A DNA stretch of 64,000 nt from Deltaproteobacteria bacterium (GTDB lineage: Bacteria; Desulfobacterota; Desulfobulbia; Desulfobulbales; JAJRZW01). The stretch lies in assembly GCA_024275015.1 (NCBI GenBank), contig JAJRZW010000016.1, forward strand, positions 70,899 through 134,898. The letters run 5' to 3'. The notes below the pieces were generated by a model. It was not told the DNA's origin and did not search any database. It saw only the letters and a list, made by a program, of their open reading frames with translations. Position numbers and translations under genes: made by a program. This document shows, in pieces, positions 10,819-21,010 of this stretch (the stretch's first letter is position 1; each line of letters begins with the position of its first letter).

Positions 10819-11967
10819 TCACACTGCGTTAATCAAGATACCTTCAATTACCCTGGCACAATAAGGCTCTTCGATACCCCATACTTTTGCCAGCCCGGCG
10901 GCGTTGGCGGCTATTTCGGGGATGGAGGATGCAGGTATGCCGACTTCTTTCAGTCTCACCGGAGCGCCGATCTTTTTGAGCCAGTCTTCAAGGGCGGTGA
11001 TGCCCTCTTCCGCGGTTCTGCGGCCGAAAATCTTGCGGGCGAAGCGTTCGTGCTGTTCCCGGTTCCGCGGGGCATGCCATTTCATCCAGGCGGGGATCAC
11101 CACTGCCAGGCCGGCTCCGTGAGGGATGTTATAGATGGCGCTCAAGGCATGTTCGATCATGTGGTTGGGAAATGCGTAAGGACCGACACCGGCAGGGGTC
11201 AGGCCATTCAGGGCCAGGGTGGCGGCCCACATGAAGGTCGCCCGGGCATCGTAGTCCTCCGGAGTTTCAAGTACGGTTTCAACGCTCTCCATTACCGTCA
11301 GAATAATCGACTCCACCAGACGGTCCTGGAGCCTTGTACCCGGCTCCTTGGTGAAATATGCCTCGATCACATGGGCAATGGCGTCAACCGCGCCGTATAC
11401 GCTGTGGTCCGGCGGCACGGTGAAGGTCAACTCGGGATTGAGAATCGACAGCCGCGGGTACAGGTGATCTGATGAAATACTGTACTTCTGCCTGGTATCA
11501 GTGTTGGTGATCACGGCGTTGCGGTTCATCTCGCTGCCGGTTGCAGCCAGGGTGAGGATGGTATAGACAGGCAAAGCCTTTTTGATTTCATCCCTGCCGA
11601 TAAAAAAATCCCAGACCTCACCGTCATGGAATATACCTGCGGCGATGGTCTTGGCCTCGTCGATCACCGAGCCGCCCCCCACCGCCAGCACCGCCTCGAC
11701 CTTATCCTTCCGGGCCCGGGCAATGCCGGTGACGACATGGGAAAGGACGGGGTTGGCGGCCACTCCGGAGTAATCGGTGAAATCGACCCCGCTTGCGACC
11801 AGGCTTGCCGTCACCCGATCGTAGAGACCGCTTCTTCCGACCGAACCCATGCCGGTGACCAGCAACACCCGGCCGATGCCGTCAGCGGCCAGCAGACGGC
11901 CGATCTCCTTTTCTCGTCCACGGCCGAAAACTATCCTGACCGGATTATGAAATTCAAAATCAAACAT
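10819..11967 (-). CDS. Iron-containing alcohol dehydrogenase, BdhA/YqhD type
   Basis: The ORF track start (12198) runs through a non-coding hairpin; the family N-terminus is FDFEFHNPVRIVFG, so the ATG at 11967 is the likely start and gives 382 aa, the usual length. GGGSVIDEAKTIA is the NAD(P) binding loop, AATGSEMNRNAV follows, and NHMIEHALSAIYNIPHGAGL contains the metal-binding histidines. These enzymes reduce aldehydes to alcohols with NADH or NADPH in the cytoplasm. It stands alone on the minus strand between the glycan cluster and the propeller/ABC locus, with repeats on both sides. Substrate preference cannot be read. Confidence 0.93.
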   Translation of the reverse strand: MFDFEFHNPVRIVFGRGREKEIGRLLAADGIGRVLLVTGMGSVGRSGLYDRVTASLVASGVDFTDYSGVAANPVLSHVVTGIARARKDKVEAVLAVGGGSVIDEAKTIAAGIFHDGEVWDFFIGRDEIKKALPVYTILTLAATGSEMNRNAVITNTDTRQKYSISSDHLYPRLSILNPELTFTVPPDHSVYGAVDAIAHVIEAYFTKEPGTRLQDRLVESIILTVMESVETVLETPEDYDARATFMWAATLALNGLTPAGVGPYAFPNHMIEHALSAIYNIPHGAGLAVVIPAWMKWHAPRNREQHERFARKIFGRRTAEEGITALEDWLKKIGAPVRLKEVGIPASSIPEIAANAAGLAKVWGIEEPYCARVIEGILINAV

Positions 11968-12026
11968 TTCCGTCCCGCCCAGCCGTCCCGCTCCCGACCC
12001 GTCAAAAATTATTACAAACAAAAACC

Positions 12027-12090
12027 GTAACCACTCACAGGGTGGGCAACTTACCTGAATATCAAGAAAAAACTGTAAGTGGTTACAGGG
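12027..12090. repeat. Satellite inverted repeat next to the 12.1-kb hairpin
   Basis: gtaaccactcacag at 12027 pairs with ctgtaagtggttac at 12073, with one mismatch and a 32-base loop. The second arm is shared with the 5' arm of the larger hairpin at 12075-12185, so the two structures are mutually exclusive. Confidence 0.6.
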
Positions 12091-12185
12091 TGTGCCTGAT
12101 GTGGACGAGCGGTAAGGCGCCATGTTACTGGTGCTACATAAGCCTTGCCGCTCGTACGCAGCAGGTGCGCCCTGTGACCGCTTAC
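12075..12185 (+). ncRNA. Long hairpin, candidate structured RNA or mobile palindrome
   Basis: The arms gtaagtggttacagggtgtg and its mate ending cctgtgaccgcttac are almost complementary, and the pairing continues in a second stem (gacgagcggtaaggc with gccttgccgctcgta). In the strongly pairing parts all differences between arms are U-G or G-U when read as plus-strand RNA, and A-C when read as minus-strand RNA. That asymmetry suggests the plus-strand RNA fold is the conserved form. It lies upstream of the promoter of the haem-propeller gene, in the gap to the divergent alcohol dehydrogenase. No downstream U-tract is seen. A degenerate transposon-derived palindrome is the alternative. Confidence 0.45.
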
Positions 12186-12280
12186 CAAAAACCGACATAA
12201 AAAACTTGTCATACGACCATATTAGCAGTTAGACTCCTAAATTCAATATTACTCCTGCGCTATTGCTATCATACGAAAAA

Positions 12281-12302: not shown

Positions 12303-12331
12303 TTGACAAGGTCTTCCTGAAAATTTAGATT
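12303..12331 (+). promoter_or_regulatory. Sigma-70-type promoter for the haem-propeller gene
   Basis: TTGACA (12303-12308) and TAGATT (12326-12331) are separated by 17 bases. The -35 is perfect and the -10 matches four of six positions. Transcription from here would give a leader of about 175 bases before the ATG at 12514. Confidence 0.6.
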
Positions 12332-12513: not shown

Positions 12514-13554
12514 ATGAAGAAAAAACTGCTTGCGGTAGGAGCCGCTCTGGCGCTTGGTATTGCCGGGGCAACAGGGGCCAGCGCCCTTGACCTGAAAGGT
12601 ATCGCCTATGTCCAGGGCCACGGTGGTCATATCGCCGTTATCGACCTGGCCACCGGCGCGGTTGGCCGTTTCTCGCACGGTAAACCCTCCGACGCGGTCA
12701 CCGTGTCAAAAGACGGCAACACCCTGTTCACCTTCTCCCTTGACGGCTATGCCAAACAAATCAATGTCAACACCGGCAAACAGACGGCCTGGACCCGTCT
12801 GGGCCAGAAACACTGCGGTTCAAACTACGCCCCTGACGGAACCATCTGGGTCTCCGACATGAAAGACGGCAAAATCTACGTGTACGACCCCAAAAAAAAC
12901 AAGCTGGTTGACAGCTTCCCGGTCGCCAAATCCATCTGCGGCATCAACTTCTCCAAGGACGGCAAGTACTGCTATGTCTCCGACATGCCCGGCGGATTCA
13001 TTTCCGTGGTCAACGTCAGGACCAAAAAAGTTGTGAGCAAGATCAACGGCGTTGGTAACTTCATTCACCGGGCCGCTATCACCCCGGACGGTAAATACCT
13101 GTGGCAGTCCGAGGGTAACGAGCTTGCCAACGGCAAACCGGTTGGTGTCGGATATACCTCCACCGGCGGCTCTCCCGGCGGCGTAAGCATCGTCGACGTC
13201 AAAACCGGCAAGGTCGTTGACTTCGTCCTCACCGGCGGCAACCCCCATGACGTTGACTTCACCCCGGATGGCAGATATGCCGTAGTTGCGGTTCGGCAGA
13301 TGCCCGAACGCACCGACTCCGCCCTGATGATCGTCAACACCAAGACCAAAAGGATCGTCAAGATGTACTCTGCCTGTAAATCCTGTCACGGGGTTCAGGA
13401 CGTTGAGATCGACGATGAAATTGACGGTGGTCGGCCCTTCCTCTGCGCCGTTCAGGTCGACTGGAATCGCACTTCAATGCCCAAGGGTGTCGAGCTTGAG
13501 ACCAAAGCCCAGTCCATCCCCACGGTCAGCCCGAAATGTGCTGACCTCAAGTAG
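12514..13554 (+). CDS. Secreted YncE/NirF-like beta-propeller with one C-terminal haem c motif
   Basis: An N-terminal signal peptide (MKKKLLAVGAALALGIAG, cleavage near ASA-LD) places this 346-aa protein in the periplasm. Repeated blades such as GGHIAVIDLATGAVGRF, GKIYVYDPKKNKLVDSF and GGVSIVDVKTGKVVDFV are typical of cytochrome-cd1-like and YncE propellers. A CKSCH motif at residues 288-292 should bind one c-type haem. Further cysteines lie in QKHCGS, KSICGI and KYCYV. The lipoprotein at 17763 is a paralogue with its CxxCH at the same place. The gene has its own promoter, a strong ribosome site and its own terminator, so it is probably monocistronic and well expressed. Electron transfer or metal/haem handling for the ABC locus downstream is inferred. 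Confidence 0.88.
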   Translation: MKKKLLAVGAALALGIAGATGASALDLKGIAYVQGHGGHIAVIDLATGAVGRFSHGKPSDAVTVSKDGNTLFTFSLDGYAKQINVNTGKQTAWTRLGQKHCGSNYAPDGTIWVSDMKDGKIYVYDPKKNKLVDSFPVAKSICGINFSKDGKYCYVSDMPGGFISVVNVRTKKVVSKINGVGNFIHRAAITPDGKYLWQSEGNELANGKPVGVGYTSTGGSPGGVSIVDVKTGKVVDFVLTGGNPHDVDFTPDGRYAVVAVRQMPERTDSALMIVNTKTKRIVKMYSACKSCHGVQDVEIDDEIDGGRPFLCAVQVDWNRTSMPKGVELETKAQSIPTVSPKCADLK

Positions 13555-13758: not shown

Positions 13759-14964
13759 ATGAAATTAAAAATCCTCTCCCTGGCCTATTCCAATATGCGG
13801 CGCAAACTATTTCGCAGTATCGCCATTGCCCTGGCGGTAATGGTGGTCGCCGCCACCCTGTTTTCCGTCACCACGATCATGGATTCGGTCGAACAGAGCC
13901 TCGAACGCGGGACATCCCGCCTCGGCGCCGACATCATGGTGGTACCGGCCAAGGCCGAAGAAACGGCCCGAACCGCACTTCTGGCCGGCAAGCCCTCAAC
14001 TTTTTACATGGACGCGAAAATCGTCGATCAGGTCAGAAAAATAAAGGGGGTTCGCTCCGTTGCGGCCCAGACCTTTTTAAAAACCTCGACATATTCCTGC
14101 TGCGACATCAGCAATATGCTTTTAATCGGCTTTGACCAGGCCAACGACTTCACCATCAAGCCCTGGCTCACCCAAACACTTGGACGACCGCTGAAAAACG
14201 ACGAAGTCATAATGGGGCGCAACATCACCGCCTATGCCACCGGCTTTCGCCTGAACTTCTTCAACACCCCCTTCACCGTTGCCGGGATGCTGGAAGAAAC
14301 CGGGATGGACTTCATCGACAACTCGATCTTCATCCCCTTCAGCGGTCTGGAAAGAATCCGGGCCAATACGGAAAAAGACGCGAAGACCAAGGGTGCCCTG
14401 CCCGCCGGCAAGGTCTCGACCATTCTGGTGCAGGTTGAGCCACAGTTTACCGCCGACCGGGTCGGCCTGTTCATTGAGGCCGATATCAACGGGGTAAAGG
14501 CCATTGTTACCGACAAAATCATCGCCTCGGTCCGCCGGCAGATGTTCATTCTCCTTCGGAGTGTTCTGTCGGTAAGCGTTATCCTCTGGATCATGGCCCT
14601 GATCCTCATCGGGGTGGTATTTTCAATGATCGTCAATGAACGCAAAAAGGAAATCGGCATCTTCCGGGCCATGGGGGCTAAAAAAAGTCACATATTCCAC
14701 CTGGTGATGGCTGAGGCAACCATCCTCTCTCTTGTCGGCGGCGTCGTCGGCATCGCCACCGGCAGCAGTATCCTCAACATCTTCCGCGACAGCATCAATG
14801 CCAGTCTCCACGTCCCCCACCTGTGGCCGAGCCCCGGCAGAATGCTGTTTCTCATCGCCTTCTGCCTCATCCTTGCGATTCTCACCGGGGTGATCGCCGC
14901 CCTTATCCCGGCAGTCAGGGCCTCACTTATTGAACCATATGAAGCCATCCGCGGCGGAGAATAA
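13759..14964 (+). CDS. FtsX/MacB-type ABC transporter permease with a Cys-Cys motif
   Basis: The 401-aa protein has one N-terminal helix (about residues 18-40), a large periplasmic domain and three C-terminal helices (about 265-290, 315-345, 360-390), the MacB/LolE layout. LGADIMVVPAK near residue 55 begins the periplasmic domain. The dipeptide CC at residues 114-115 (in STYSCCDISNMLL) is shared with the second permease at 16026, followed in both by a (G)(F/Y)D...DFTI.PW(L/V) segment. Paired cysteines suggest metal or thiol chemistry. The layout permease-ATPase-permease-thioredoxin resembles the Cj1661-Cj1664 part of the C. jejuni p19 iron locus, as I recall it. The start codon has no strong ribosome site. 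Confidence 0.9.
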   Translation: MKLKILSLAYSNMRRKLFRSIAIALAVMVVAATLFSVTTIMDSVEQSLERGTSRLGADIMVVPAKAEETARTALLAGKPSTFYMDAKIVDQVRKIKGVRSVAAQTFLKTSTYSCCDISNMLLIGFDQANDFTIKPWLTQTLGRPLKNDEVIMGRNITAYATGFRLNFFNTPFTVAGMLEETGMDFIDNSIFIPFSGLERIRANTEKDAKTKGALPAGKVSTILVQVEPQFTADRVGLFIEADINGVKAIVTDKIIASVRRQMFILLRSVLSVSVILWIMALILIGVVFSMIVNERKKEIGIFRAMGAKKSHIFHLVMAEATILSLVGGVVGIATGSSILNIFRDSINASLHVPHLWPSPGRMLFLIAFCLILAILTGVIAALIPAVRASLIEPYEAIRGGE

Positions 14965-15177
14965 TTCCAGGAACAGCCCTGTTGCACGCATTAACATCCC
15001 GTTAAAAAACGGATTGTTATCGGCACCCGGCTTCCGGGCCAAACCCGGAACAACTTTGTAAGCTTTGCTAAATCAAGTCGTATATTCAACAAATTAAGGC
15101 AATCAGGAAAGTTGAACAAAAACTCACAAATATTACAGTCAAAAACGGGCTAACCTGTGGCACCTGGTGAACCATAG
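14965..15177 (+). repeat. Gap with a degenerate hairpin-1 relic
   Basis: The gap between the first permease and its ATPase is unusual for an ABC operon. catcccgttaaaaaacggat tg at 14996-15018 is a variant of the family A hairpin 1. The AT-rich stretch 15060-15150 shows nothing I recognise. Confidence 0.5.
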
Positions 15178-15270
15178 CAGGCCGTTGAAAAAGCCGTCCA
15201 TGGTTTTTCAATTCCGGCAAAATCGGCGGGGTGTCCATGCGCCGCGCACAGCCCGTTTTTCAACGAGCTG
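15178..15270 (-). repeat. Multi-hairpin repeat family A, short copy inside the ABC operon
   Basis: ccgttgaaaaagccgtccat, then the ggcaaaatcggcgg core and cagcccgtttttcaacgagctg: the short inverted version also seen at 10699 and 42191. It interrupts the ABC operon between permease and ATPase, so it probably does not stop transcription completely. Confidence 0.8.
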
Positions 15271-15342
15271 GTAGATGGCCCTGTAAAAAGTACTTGACCA
15301 ATATCGTCAATGACTATGGTTAAAAGCAAAAGGAGCAACACC

Positions 15343-16029
15343 ATGATTGAGGTCGTTAATCTGGAAAAAGACTATCGCCTTGAAGGGGAAACCATCAAGG
15401 CGGTCGACAATATCAACTTCAAGGTAGATCAGGGGGAGTTCATGGCCATCCTCGGTCACTCGGGCAGCGGCAAGACCACCCTGCTTAACCTCCTTGGCGG
15501 TCTCACCCGCCCCACCCACGGAACGGTAAAGATAGAAGGCCAGGACATCTGGGATCTTTCCGATAACCAGTTATCAGAGATGCGTAATGAAAAGATGAAC
15601 TTCATCTTTCAGTTCGCGAGCCTGATCCCGACCCTGAACGTCATCGACAATATCCTTCTCCCCACCGCTTTTGGCAAAAAAAGAGAACGAAAACATTACG
15701 ACCACGCCATGGAACTTCTGGGCATAGTCGGCCTCACGGAAAAAGGCCAGGCATACCCGGCTCAGCTCTCCGGCGGCCAGCAGCGGCGGGTGGCCATCGC
15801 CCGCGCCTTTATCAACGCCCCCAAAATAATATTGGCCGACGAGCCCACCGGCGATCTTGACGAAAAGACCGAGCAGGAGATGGTCAACCTCTTCCGGAAA
15901 ATGAACCAGGAAGAGAATACCACCTTTATCATTGTCACCCACAGTTCAAGCCTCGCGGCCCAGACCGATCGACAGATGCGGATGACCAGCGGCAGGCTTG
16001 AAGCAGAGCCCAACGGCTGCCCCCAATGA
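15343..16029 (+). CDS. ABC transporter ATP-binding protein, LolD/MacB type
   Basis: A nucleotide-binding subunit with Walker A GHSGSGKTTLLN, Q-loop FQFASLIPTLN, signature LSGGQQRRVAIARAF and Walker B IILADEPTGDLDE. The track start at 15310 is too early: ATG 15343 is preceded by AAGGAG at the right distance and gives 228 aa, the normal size. LolD/MacB-type ATPases drive FtsX-fold permeases that do not carry substrate through the membrane but move periplasmic material mechanically. It lies between two such permeases and overlaps the second by ATGA, so it probably serves both as a heteromeric complex. Confidence 0.95.
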   Translation: MIEVVNLEKDYRLEGETIKAVDNINFKVDQGEFMAILGHSGSGKTTLLNLLGGLTRPTHGTVKIEGQDIWDLSDNQLSEMRNEKMNFIFQFASLIPTLNVIDNILLPTAFGKKRERKHYDHAMELLGIVGLTEKGQAYPAQLSGGQQRRVAIARAFINAPKIILADEPTGDLDEKTEQEMVNLFRKMNQEENTTFIIVTHSSSLAAQTDRQMRMTSGRLEAEPNGCPQ

Positions 16030-17720
16030 CCGCGATTGTTTTTTTCATCACCGGCATTCTCTTTTTCATGGTGCCGCATTTCCTTCTCCCCATGGATCTC
16101 CTCTCCGGAGGACGGGGGGCATGGCTGTTAAGTGACTGCTCATTCCAGTTTCATCCGGAGACTGTAAGCGGTATCATCCTCATTCTGGCCGCGATTTTGA
16201 GAATGAAGGGGAAAAATGGATCCGTGGCGGCGTTGCTCGCCGCCGCCATTGCTCTAACCCAGGCCGCGATCATGCGGCCGTTGAGTTTTTATCTCCACAG
16301 CGAAGAAAACCTGGTCATCCTCGGCCAGACCTACTCCATGCGCGGCCACAGTCATATCCGCGAGACCCTGGTTTTTCTTGGCATGATCATCGTGGTAACC
16401 GTAATTGTCGATATATTGCTACGCCGGCGGACACGATGGACAATCAGTCTCTTTAACCTCTCGCTCAGCAATATCATGCGAAAACTGTTTCGCTCAACCG
16501 CCCTTGTCCTCGCCCTGAGCGTGGTCATCGGCGCCTTTTTTGCCGATGTTCTCCTGACCGACAGTATTAGCAACACCCTTGAGCTTGGCGCCGGCCGCCT
16601 CGGCGCCGATCTGGTGGTGGTCCCGAAAACCGCGGAAAAAGAGGCCCGCGAGGTCCTGATCAACGGCACCCCGCACATATTCAATCTTGACCGCGGGATC
16701 CTTGAAACTCTTAAAAAATGGCCGGAAATCGAAAAAATATCACCGCAACTATTCTTCCGCCCCTTCTCATACCTGGTATGCTGCACCACCGAGCAGGTTC
16801 TGGTGGTAGGATATGACCCGAAAACCGATTTCACCATCGCCCCCTGGGTCAATTATTTCCTCCATAAACGCCAGAAAAACAACGAAATCGTGGTCGGGGC
16901 CAGGGTAAAATTTTACCCTGGACAGCAAATATCTCTCTTCGGCAACCGCCTCGCGGTGGTCGCCTCTCTTGATCCCGCCGGCATTGGTTATTTTGATCGC
17001 AGCGCCTTTATCCCCATGACAGGGGCACAGGAACTGATAGAGTCCCTGAAGGATACGGAAAAAGAAGGCCGGTTGCATAAAAGAAAAAACATGAACGATC
17101 TCTCTCTGACCCATCTCTTTGATTCCCCGACTGTCCAGAAAAAACAGCTGGCCGAGGTTAATCCCCATGGAATTTCAGTGCTCATGGTAAAATGTCGTGA
17201 CGGTGTCGCGGTGAAGAAAATCGCGGCCCGAATCGAAAAGGAACTGCCCTCCACCGCGGTGGTCAACGTTCGGGCCGCGACCATCTCGGTGAAACGACAG
17301 TTGACATCCATGCTCGACGCATTTTTCCTGCCGATCATCATCCTCATGGGCATGGGCACGGTTATCCTTGCGGTGGTCTTTTCCATGAGCGCCAACGAAA
17401 GAAAACGCGAGGTCGGTCTCCTGCGGGCCATGGGGGCAAAGGAAAGAGATATATTCACCCTCTTCCTCCGCGAGGCGATAATGATCTCCATCCTTGGCGG
17501 GACATTCGGGGTATTGGGAGGAGGGTCTATTATCATCCTGTTTAAAAACAGACTCATGGCCACCCTGAACCTGCTATACATCTGGCCCCAAGCCGCAACA
17601 GTGGCCGAGGTGATCATCATTACCCTGGCCGCGAGTGTATTAATCGGTATAATTGCCGGTCTTTTTCCGGCGATCAGGGCCGCCCGTCAGGAACCATATG
17701 AATCCTTCCGCGCCAATTAA
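16026..17720 (+). CDS. FtsX/MacB-type ABC permease with extra N-terminal membrane domain
   Basis: At 564 aa it is about 160 residues longer than the first permease. The extra N-terminal part has four hydrophobic helices (about 3-22, 47-60, 66-86, 113-132) and resembles the small DUF4418 membrane proteins that neighbour such transporters, so this may be a DUF4418-permease fusion. The permease part begins SLFNLSLSNIMRKLFRS near residue 141, has LGADLVVVPKT near 192, the CC dipeptide at 252-253 (YLVCCTTEQ) and DFTIAPWV after it. Three C-terminal helices follow. It overlaps the ATPase by ATGA. Close similarity of the periplasmic segment to the first permease indicates an old duplication. Confidence 0.9.
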   Translation: MTAIVFFITGILFFMVPHFLLPMDLLSGGRGAWLLSDCSFQFHPETVSGIILILAAILRMKGKNGSVAALLAAAIALTQAAIMRPLSFYLHSEENLVILGQTYSMRGHSHIRETLVFLGMIIVVTVIVDILLRRRTRWTISLFNLSLSNIMRKLFRSTALVLALSVVIGAFFADVLLTDSISNTLELGAGRLGADLVVVPKTAEKEAREVLINGTPHIFNLDRGILETLKKWPEIEKISPQLFFRPFSYLVCCTTEQVLVVGYDPKTDFTIAPWVNYFLHKRQKNNEIVVGARVKFYPGQQISLFGNRLAVVASLDPAGIGYFDRSAFIPMTGAQELIESLKDTEKEGRLHKRKNMNDLSLTHLFDSPTVQKKQLAEVNPHGISVLMVKCRDGVAVKKIAARIEKELPSTAVVNVRAATISVKRQLTSMLDAFFLPIIILMGMGTVILAVVFSMSANERKREVGLLRAMGAKERDIFTLFLREAIMISILGGTFGVLGGGSIIILFKNRLMATLNLLYIWPQAATVAEVIIITLAASVLIGIIAGLFPAIRAARQEPYESFRAN

Positions 17721-20445: not shown

Positions 20446-21010
20446 GAATACCGCCTCCCTCTTTAGGGCACCTTTTAGACGTACCTTTTCATCCGACAAC
20501 TGCGTCAACACCGAAACAGCTCACATAATCTATGAAAATGATATGCTTTCATATTTCGGAGCCCCTTTGTTCCCGGACAAAAAATAAAAAAGGTATCCGT
20601 TAGTAAGATTTAACAACAGCCGTCCTTTCTACCTTATTATTTACCTGGATCCGTGACGGCTTAGTGGCAACCGAGTATGTATTCATCTGAATTCATGCGT
20701 TTTTTGCCGGATTTTCACTCCGGCGGGAATTTCACCCCGCCGCCCTTCGGGCGTCCGGGAACGACTCATCCGCGGTGTCGGCAACCCGTTGATATACCGA
20801 AGTATAATCAACGTGCTTGCCTCCTTGCGCCTGCGCCGTTCCCGAACGTCACGGATCCAAGTATTTAATAATATCACATGGTTCATTGATAAAAGCAAAA
20901 AAAACCGCCTTATTGCTTTTTCCCGACGACCAAACTATCCTATTCGCCCATCAAACACATTCCATATTGCGCCTGTTCCAGCCATAAATCATCGTCTTGA
21001 GGAAAAAGAG
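20446..21010. other. Divergent control region between pilin and LysR genes
   Basis: Coordinates span the divergent gap. atgaaaatgatatgctttcat near 20532 is an interrupted palindrome that could be a LysR-type site. From 20706 three hairpins follow each other: gccggattttcactccggc, ggcgggaatttcaccccgcc and cgcccttcgggcg; the first two share the loop motif ATTTCAC. I see no coding sequence. The track ORF 20789 uses this region only as an artificial N-terminal extension of LysR. Confidence 0.5.

Follow-up and report, generated by a model that had tools for sequence, protein, structure and literature searches.

Genes and features at the locus

The window, a 64,000-nt stretch of contig JAJRZW010000016.1 from a bacterium of the order Desulfobulbales, carries a short element between two genes. 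One encodes an iron-containing alcohol dehydrogenase (10819-11967, minus strand), and the other a beta-propeller (haem-propeller) protein that matches cytochrome D1 weakly (12514-13554). A promoter-like site with 10/12 consensus bases (12303-12331) lies downstream of the element and before the propeller gene. Farther on, downstream of the propeller gene (13759-17720), two genes for permease-like proteins, as read from the translations alone, flank one for an ABC ATPase, and the three possibly form one operon.

The element begins next to an 8-bp target duplication CAAAAACC (12019-12026), which is identical to the copy that follows its other end (12186-12193). Between the two copies lie the left end GTAACCACTCACAGGG (12027-12042, plus strand), a spacer of 32 bp (12043-12074, plus strand), and a hairpin whose better-pairing strand is the plus strand (12075-12185), as delimited by folding and by a covariance model. 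The 3' foot of the hairpin, reading inward as GTAAGCGGTCACAGGG on the minus strand (12170-12185), is the right end of the element and adjoins the right duplication. The left end and the spacer are common to three copies in the same genome. Many relatives have homologous left ends with duplications, and homologous right ends are likewise found in relatives.

The two further copies in the genome are about 96% identical to the element in the window, and in the alignment of the three the common stretch is about 159 bp, not 111. Their duplications, GATGTATG and GTTTTACC (the latter with one extra base), differ from the one in the window. Different 8-bp direct repeats thus enclose each copy just outside its ends, a hallmark of transposition. 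The interval 12027-12185 is short, has the terminal inverted repeats GTAACCACTCACAGGG and GTAAGCGGTCACAGGG, contains no transposase gene, shows an 8-bp target duplication at all three copies, and is present in multiple dispersed copies. It is therefore a 159-bp non-autonomous MITE with GTAA ends (the right end starts with GTAAGCG and the left end with GTAACC), whose left end, spacer and hairpin move together. The preliminary description, which treated the hairpin as a free-standing unit of 111 nt, is contradicted by the 159-bp element, its duplications and the sister copies elsewhere in the genome.

The hairpin and its arms

The 111-nt hairpin itself was placed correctly in that description, to the nucleotide, and is far beyond chance: plus-strand RNA of 12075-12185 has a predicted folding energy of -81.0 kcal/mol, compared with -39.8 +/- 3.8 for shuffled sequences (z -10.85). 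Minus-strand RNA of the same interval reaches -58.9 kcal/mol. With single-stranded DNA parameters the plus strand also folds better (-41.1 as compared with -26.4 for the minus strand), and the covariance model gives the window hairpin 85.9 bits on the plus strand and 48.3 bits on the minus strand.

In the predicted plus-strand fold, 7/47 pairs are G-U. The preliminary description held that each difference in the well-paired parts of the arms is a G-U on the plus strand. This is so for the well-paired stem below the apical region, where only G-U pairs and two purine-purine mismatches occur, but not for the whole molecule, since a comparison of the arms made without reference to the fold gives 7 G-U, 2 A-C and 3 other differences. 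Seven of seven differences going one way in a single hairpin has by itself a p of about 0.016. The preference for G-U on the plus strand is solid because the two sister copies (9 G-U and 2 A-C each, by arm comparison) and the whole family agree. A second structure that had been described as competing for the 5' arm (12027-12090) does exist, at -21.3 kcal/mol, and is weak; it is now read as the left end of the element pairing with the 5' foot of the hairpin.

Spread and members of the family

The end motif occurs in 45/258 genomes of the order, with up to about 100 occurrences per genome, and a reversed-pattern control gave near zero. When the two feet were searched for as a pattern with 70-100 bases between them, a genome collection yielded 56 stretches, mostly in Desulfobulbaceae and other deltaproteobacterial assemblies. 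Hundreds of relatives were found by a covariance model built from 23 diverse hairpins, which has members in 15/297 genomes of the phylum, some of them outside the order. Its matches include about 24 places in the genome of the window and 109 members in 790 kb of one complete genome (G004). In the latter, 8-bp duplications were scored at 37/109 hairpins, a few of them perhaps by chance, as compared with 0.7% at random positions; nearly all 37 have the left end 23-46 bp upstream (mostly 43 or 44, and 24 in another subfamily). Throughout this large family of the phylum the hairpin is a constant part, specific to one strand. Its plan comprises a lower stem (about 23 bp) and upper stems, with small internal loops rich in purines and a short apical loop.

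In Rfam, tRNAs alone scored above the gathering score in the window, and the relatives gave only tRNA and weak chance hairpins. The plasmid and phage collections contained no DNA match, and no prior description of the family was found in the open-access literature.

Several members depart from the plan. A diverged member of a 95-nt type lies in the window at 20753-20847 on the minus strand (covariance model E 3.8e-6), folding at -52.6 on that strand and at -39.7 on the other. Its feet differ (GTTCGGG...CCCGGAC) and its apical loop is C(UUCG)G. Near-identical copies of this type are found at several other places in the genome, often with a GGGCGGCGGGGTGAA-like stretch behind them. On contig C69 of the same genome, two family hairpins in tandem and the 3' half of a third adjoin a tRNA gene (L198, 1410-1607). 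In L217 (14667-14795) and L247 (10388-10491) the apical or inner part is replaced by a palindrome, GGGGACAGTTTT..AAAACTGTCCCC, which is perhaps another inserted small repeat.

Covariation

A homologue search by covariance model, which had been proposed as a check of the hairpin, found relatives whose arm differences keep pairing; the result named beforehand as a refutation, differences that break the pairing, was thus not obtained. In the alignment of the 23 diverse members, pairing holds in 95.8% of cells (83.3% when shuffled) and the covariation score is 0.414 (0.184 when shuffled). Changes on both sides are seen at 23/36 pairs as compared with 10.4 in shuffled alignments; 0/500 shuffles reach this number, although the shuffles ignore the relatedness of the members. 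Controls with slid alignments leave 28-41% paired. The covariation exceeds these controls, as is expected of a structured RNA, with copying from arm to arm as a possible contributor. The internal loops recur (GR/GA; AAG/ATC or a longer variant; GAAG/TGA and similar), and the lower stem is sometimes wholly replaced.

In three members (L249 10498, L223 2279 and L228 287) part of one arm matches the reverse complement of the other exactly, in contrast to the loops usual in the family. This rewriting is likely the result of quasipalindrome (template-switch) correction, a process that could be the source of part of the both-side changes without selection.

Strand preference

Copies of the family were gathered by the fold model or by intact feet. 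When the orientation was set by the left end and the duplication rather than by the fold, the arms showed 239 G-U and 75 A-C differences, a count that includes a few doubtful left ends. Recent changes, defined as variants seen in a single copy of a subfamily and counted only at pairs that are Watson-Crick in the consensus, comprised 40 G-U and 16 A-C (p 0.0018). By genome, the recent G-U to A-C ratio was 20:2 in the complete genome, the source of most of the excess, 5:1 in another, and 9:8 and 6:5 in two others, whose copies had been selected by high score or intact feet. A count of good and bad transitions (85:91) was set aside; it scored changes from consensus G-U to Watson-Crick as losses. 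Within the lowest 23 pairs, counted from the foot, pair 17 is a wobble in 182/206 copies.

The bias is present in both arms (22:1 and 17:2) and is alike for sense, antisense and convergent neighbouring genes. Selective pressure for a weaker hairpin in the adjoining mRNAs was rejected as its cause, the bias being equal in all contexts, and so was a replication-strand preference of the insertions, which stand at 54:55. Since the bias is independent of context and of the replication strand, the fold is most likely a property of the element. In the spacers of the complete genome, distinct C>T and G>A variants are about equal in number (11 and 10), and strand-biased mutation therefore fails to explain the bias. 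It is very probable that what selection or the mobilisation process preserves is the plus-strand fold, and that this fold belongs to the element, not to a neighbouring host gene. The earlier statement that the hairpin is conserved only as plus-strand RNA holds insofar as homologues keep the arms paired on one strand; its restriction to RNA is not supported, single-stranded DNA giving the same asymmetry.

Placement relative to genes

Nothing ties the hairpin to the alcohol dehydrogenase or the propeller gene. The preliminary description placed it upstream of the promoter of the propeller gene, and it does lie upstream of the promoter-like site; a neutral insertion at this spot is the most likely account of its presence beside the gene.

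According to home-made gene calls, the hairpins of the complete genome are found in convergent gaps (33), in tandem gaps in antisense (38) or sense (17) orientation, and in divergent gaps (10). Seventy-one gene 3' ends face the right end of an element in this genome: 61/71 are within 16 bp, and in 25/71 of the genes the TAA of the element's own GTAA is the stop codon. When empty sites were rebuilt from the duplications, most native stops lay no more than about 10 bp from the 8-bp target. Smaller samples from other genomes show the same tendency of right end and stop codon. The left end has no comparably tight spacing to gene stops (complete genome, L212-L251), and neither the copy in the window nor either of its two sisters adjoins a stop codon. 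Termini of REP palindromes often supply stop codons too (PMC3733652), and for this reason selection against damage may account for part of the placement.

A candidate mobiliser

The best lead for a mobiliser is suggested to be of the IS66 type. Such ends and 8-bp duplications have been described for the IS66 family (PMC11946415), and IS66 elements of the order have GTAAGCG ends and 8-bp duplications; the present element has GTAAGCG at its right end, GTAACC at its left, and an 8-bp duplication. In a search of 1.8 Mb for paired ends with an exact 8-bp duplication, the sole long element was an IS66 with partly similar ends. The likeness of the ends is convincing over the first 8-11 bp only; further in, it was seen in two genomes (tail score 19 as compared with 0 +/- 7 for shuffled sequences) and, with the alignment used, not in two others. 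The IS66 transposase (PF03050) is absent from the assembly that contains the window (93% complete), and IS66 does not co-occur with the element in the order (16/45 element-bearing genomes, by hand count, as compared with 100/253 overall). No Y1/RAYT transposase (PF01797) was found in the same genome, and no autonomous copy was found by the 1.8-Mb paired-end search or among lone ends in that genome. Open reading frames near hairpins were rejected as transposases: they encode homoserine dehydrogenase, polyprenyl synthase, a methyltransferase, RecO, and other host proteins. Tentatively, then, a transposase of IS66 type, supplied by another copy or genome, may recognise the GTAA ends, with the 3' arm of the hairpin doubling as the right end.

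Comparison with known repeats

The family has the anatomy of ERIC, Correia and NEMIS elements and the abundance of REPs. ERIC, Correia/NEMIS and similar MITEs are small elements bounded by terminal repeats, and their transcripts would fold into a long stem-loop (PMC2229807). The present element shares with them a length of 100-160 bp, terminal repeats, target duplications, the absence of a transposase gene, a mostly intergenic position, and a transcript that would form such a stem-loop. It differs in that the hairpin forms only the right part, has conserved internal loops, and preserves the pairing of one strand; the duplication is of 8 bp, and sequence and hosts are unrelated. REPs of the GTAG and CGTC types are very abundant extragenic palindromes near gene ends (PMC3733652), and abundance, gene-end position and the supply of a stop codon are common to both. 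In contrast to the 20-40 bp of REPs, the hairpins here are about 108 bp (111 nt in the window), with GTAA feet, 8-bp duplications, and no PF01797 protein in the genome of the window. IS66 elements share the GTAAGCG ends and the 8-bp target duplication, but the present element is without transposase genes, its ends diverge after 8-11 bp, and its presence does not track that of IS66 across genomes.

Integron attC sites are imperfect palindromes with variable stems that are recognised by the shape of one strand. The hairpin resembles them as an imperfect palindrome with variable stems, but has no GTTRRRY/RYYYAAC core (the feet are GTAAG...CTTAC), is flanked by 8-bp duplications, and is dispersed rather than arranged in cassette arrays.

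Interpretation

Taken together, the locus is probably best explained by a MITE with a preserved plus-strand fold, possibly mobilised by IS66. A transposase of the IS66 type would act in trans on the GTAA ends of the element, with the 3' arm of the hairpin serving also as its right end, and insertion would duplicate 8 bp of the target; the plus-strand transcript, or the single strand during mobilisation, would fold into the stem. We consider it reasonably likely that what is preserved is an RNA transcribed from the element and folded into a stable stem; that it is a folded single DNA strand used in mobilisation is a possibility we hold with some doubt. Two features, the C(UUCG)G apical loop in the 95-nt type and the conserved wobble at pair 17, lead us to lean slightly to RNA. 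A stronger version, in which the folded plus strand (RNA or single-stranded DNA) is a required, shape-recognised part of a GTAA-ended, 8-bp-duplicating transposition and also explains the one-sided insertion at stop codons, appears unlikely.

A single-stranded DNA site, in which the plus strand extrudes and a recombinase or transposase reads its shape as in attC, with the internal loops marking the strand, would account for the better folding of the plus strand as DNA, for loops that are conserved while stems turn over, and for a bias independent of transcription context. This reading is rather doubtful, since the 8-bp duplications point to a cut in double-stranded DNA, the replication-strand preference is absent, the genome of the window has no Y1 transposase, and the loop and wobble just mentioned lean to RNA. 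Less probable still is a 3' structure that serves the host as a terminator or mRNA stabiliser and was spread or kept for its position behind stop codons. The tight facing of gene 3' ends, the use of the element's TAA, the 33/109 hairpins in convergent gaps, and the terminator-like A/T-rich feet of some copies agree with it. In tandem pairs, however, the plus strand is antisense in 73 cases and sense in 31, so that the strand present in mRNAs is mostly the one that pairs less well; neither the window copy nor its sisters lie at stop codons, and a gene-end position is equally predicted by selection against damage.

A transition in a palindrome always leaves one strand with a G-U and the other with an A-C, and a C>T bias on one strand would mimic the pattern seen here; two genomes, moreover, are without bias in recent copies. 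A functionless palindrome decaying under strand-biased mutation is nevertheless very improbable: the reading is largely refuted by the spacers of the same copies, which show no strand bias, and it is also opposed by the lack of replication-strand preference, the strong covariation, and the presence of the bias in both arms. As to an independent small RNA or a leader of the propeller gene, a strong plus-strand fold does lie near that gene, but the insertion with target duplication, the copies elsewhere in the genome, and the position of the promoter-like site downstream of the hairpin make this hardly credible.

Significance

Hairpin-forming MITEs are usually explained as by-products of inverted repeats. 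In the MITE with a preserved plus-strand fold described here the strands can be told apart, since homologues keep the fold and the small loops of one strand while the sequence of the stem turns over, and the idea that such MITEs carry a functional RNA (or single-stranded DNA) becomes testable. Were the plus strand indeed recognised by its shape, this would be a cut-and-insert element that relies on a single-strand fold to move or to find its target. The family is abundant and apparently undescribed: it is absent from Rfam, and searches of the open-access literature gave no earlier account. In many genomes the element sits at stop codons in one orientation, and it should be annotated when the gene ends and transcripts of sulfur bacteria are read. 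The folded single strand seems to be of importance for the element itself, not for the haem-protein gene beside it.
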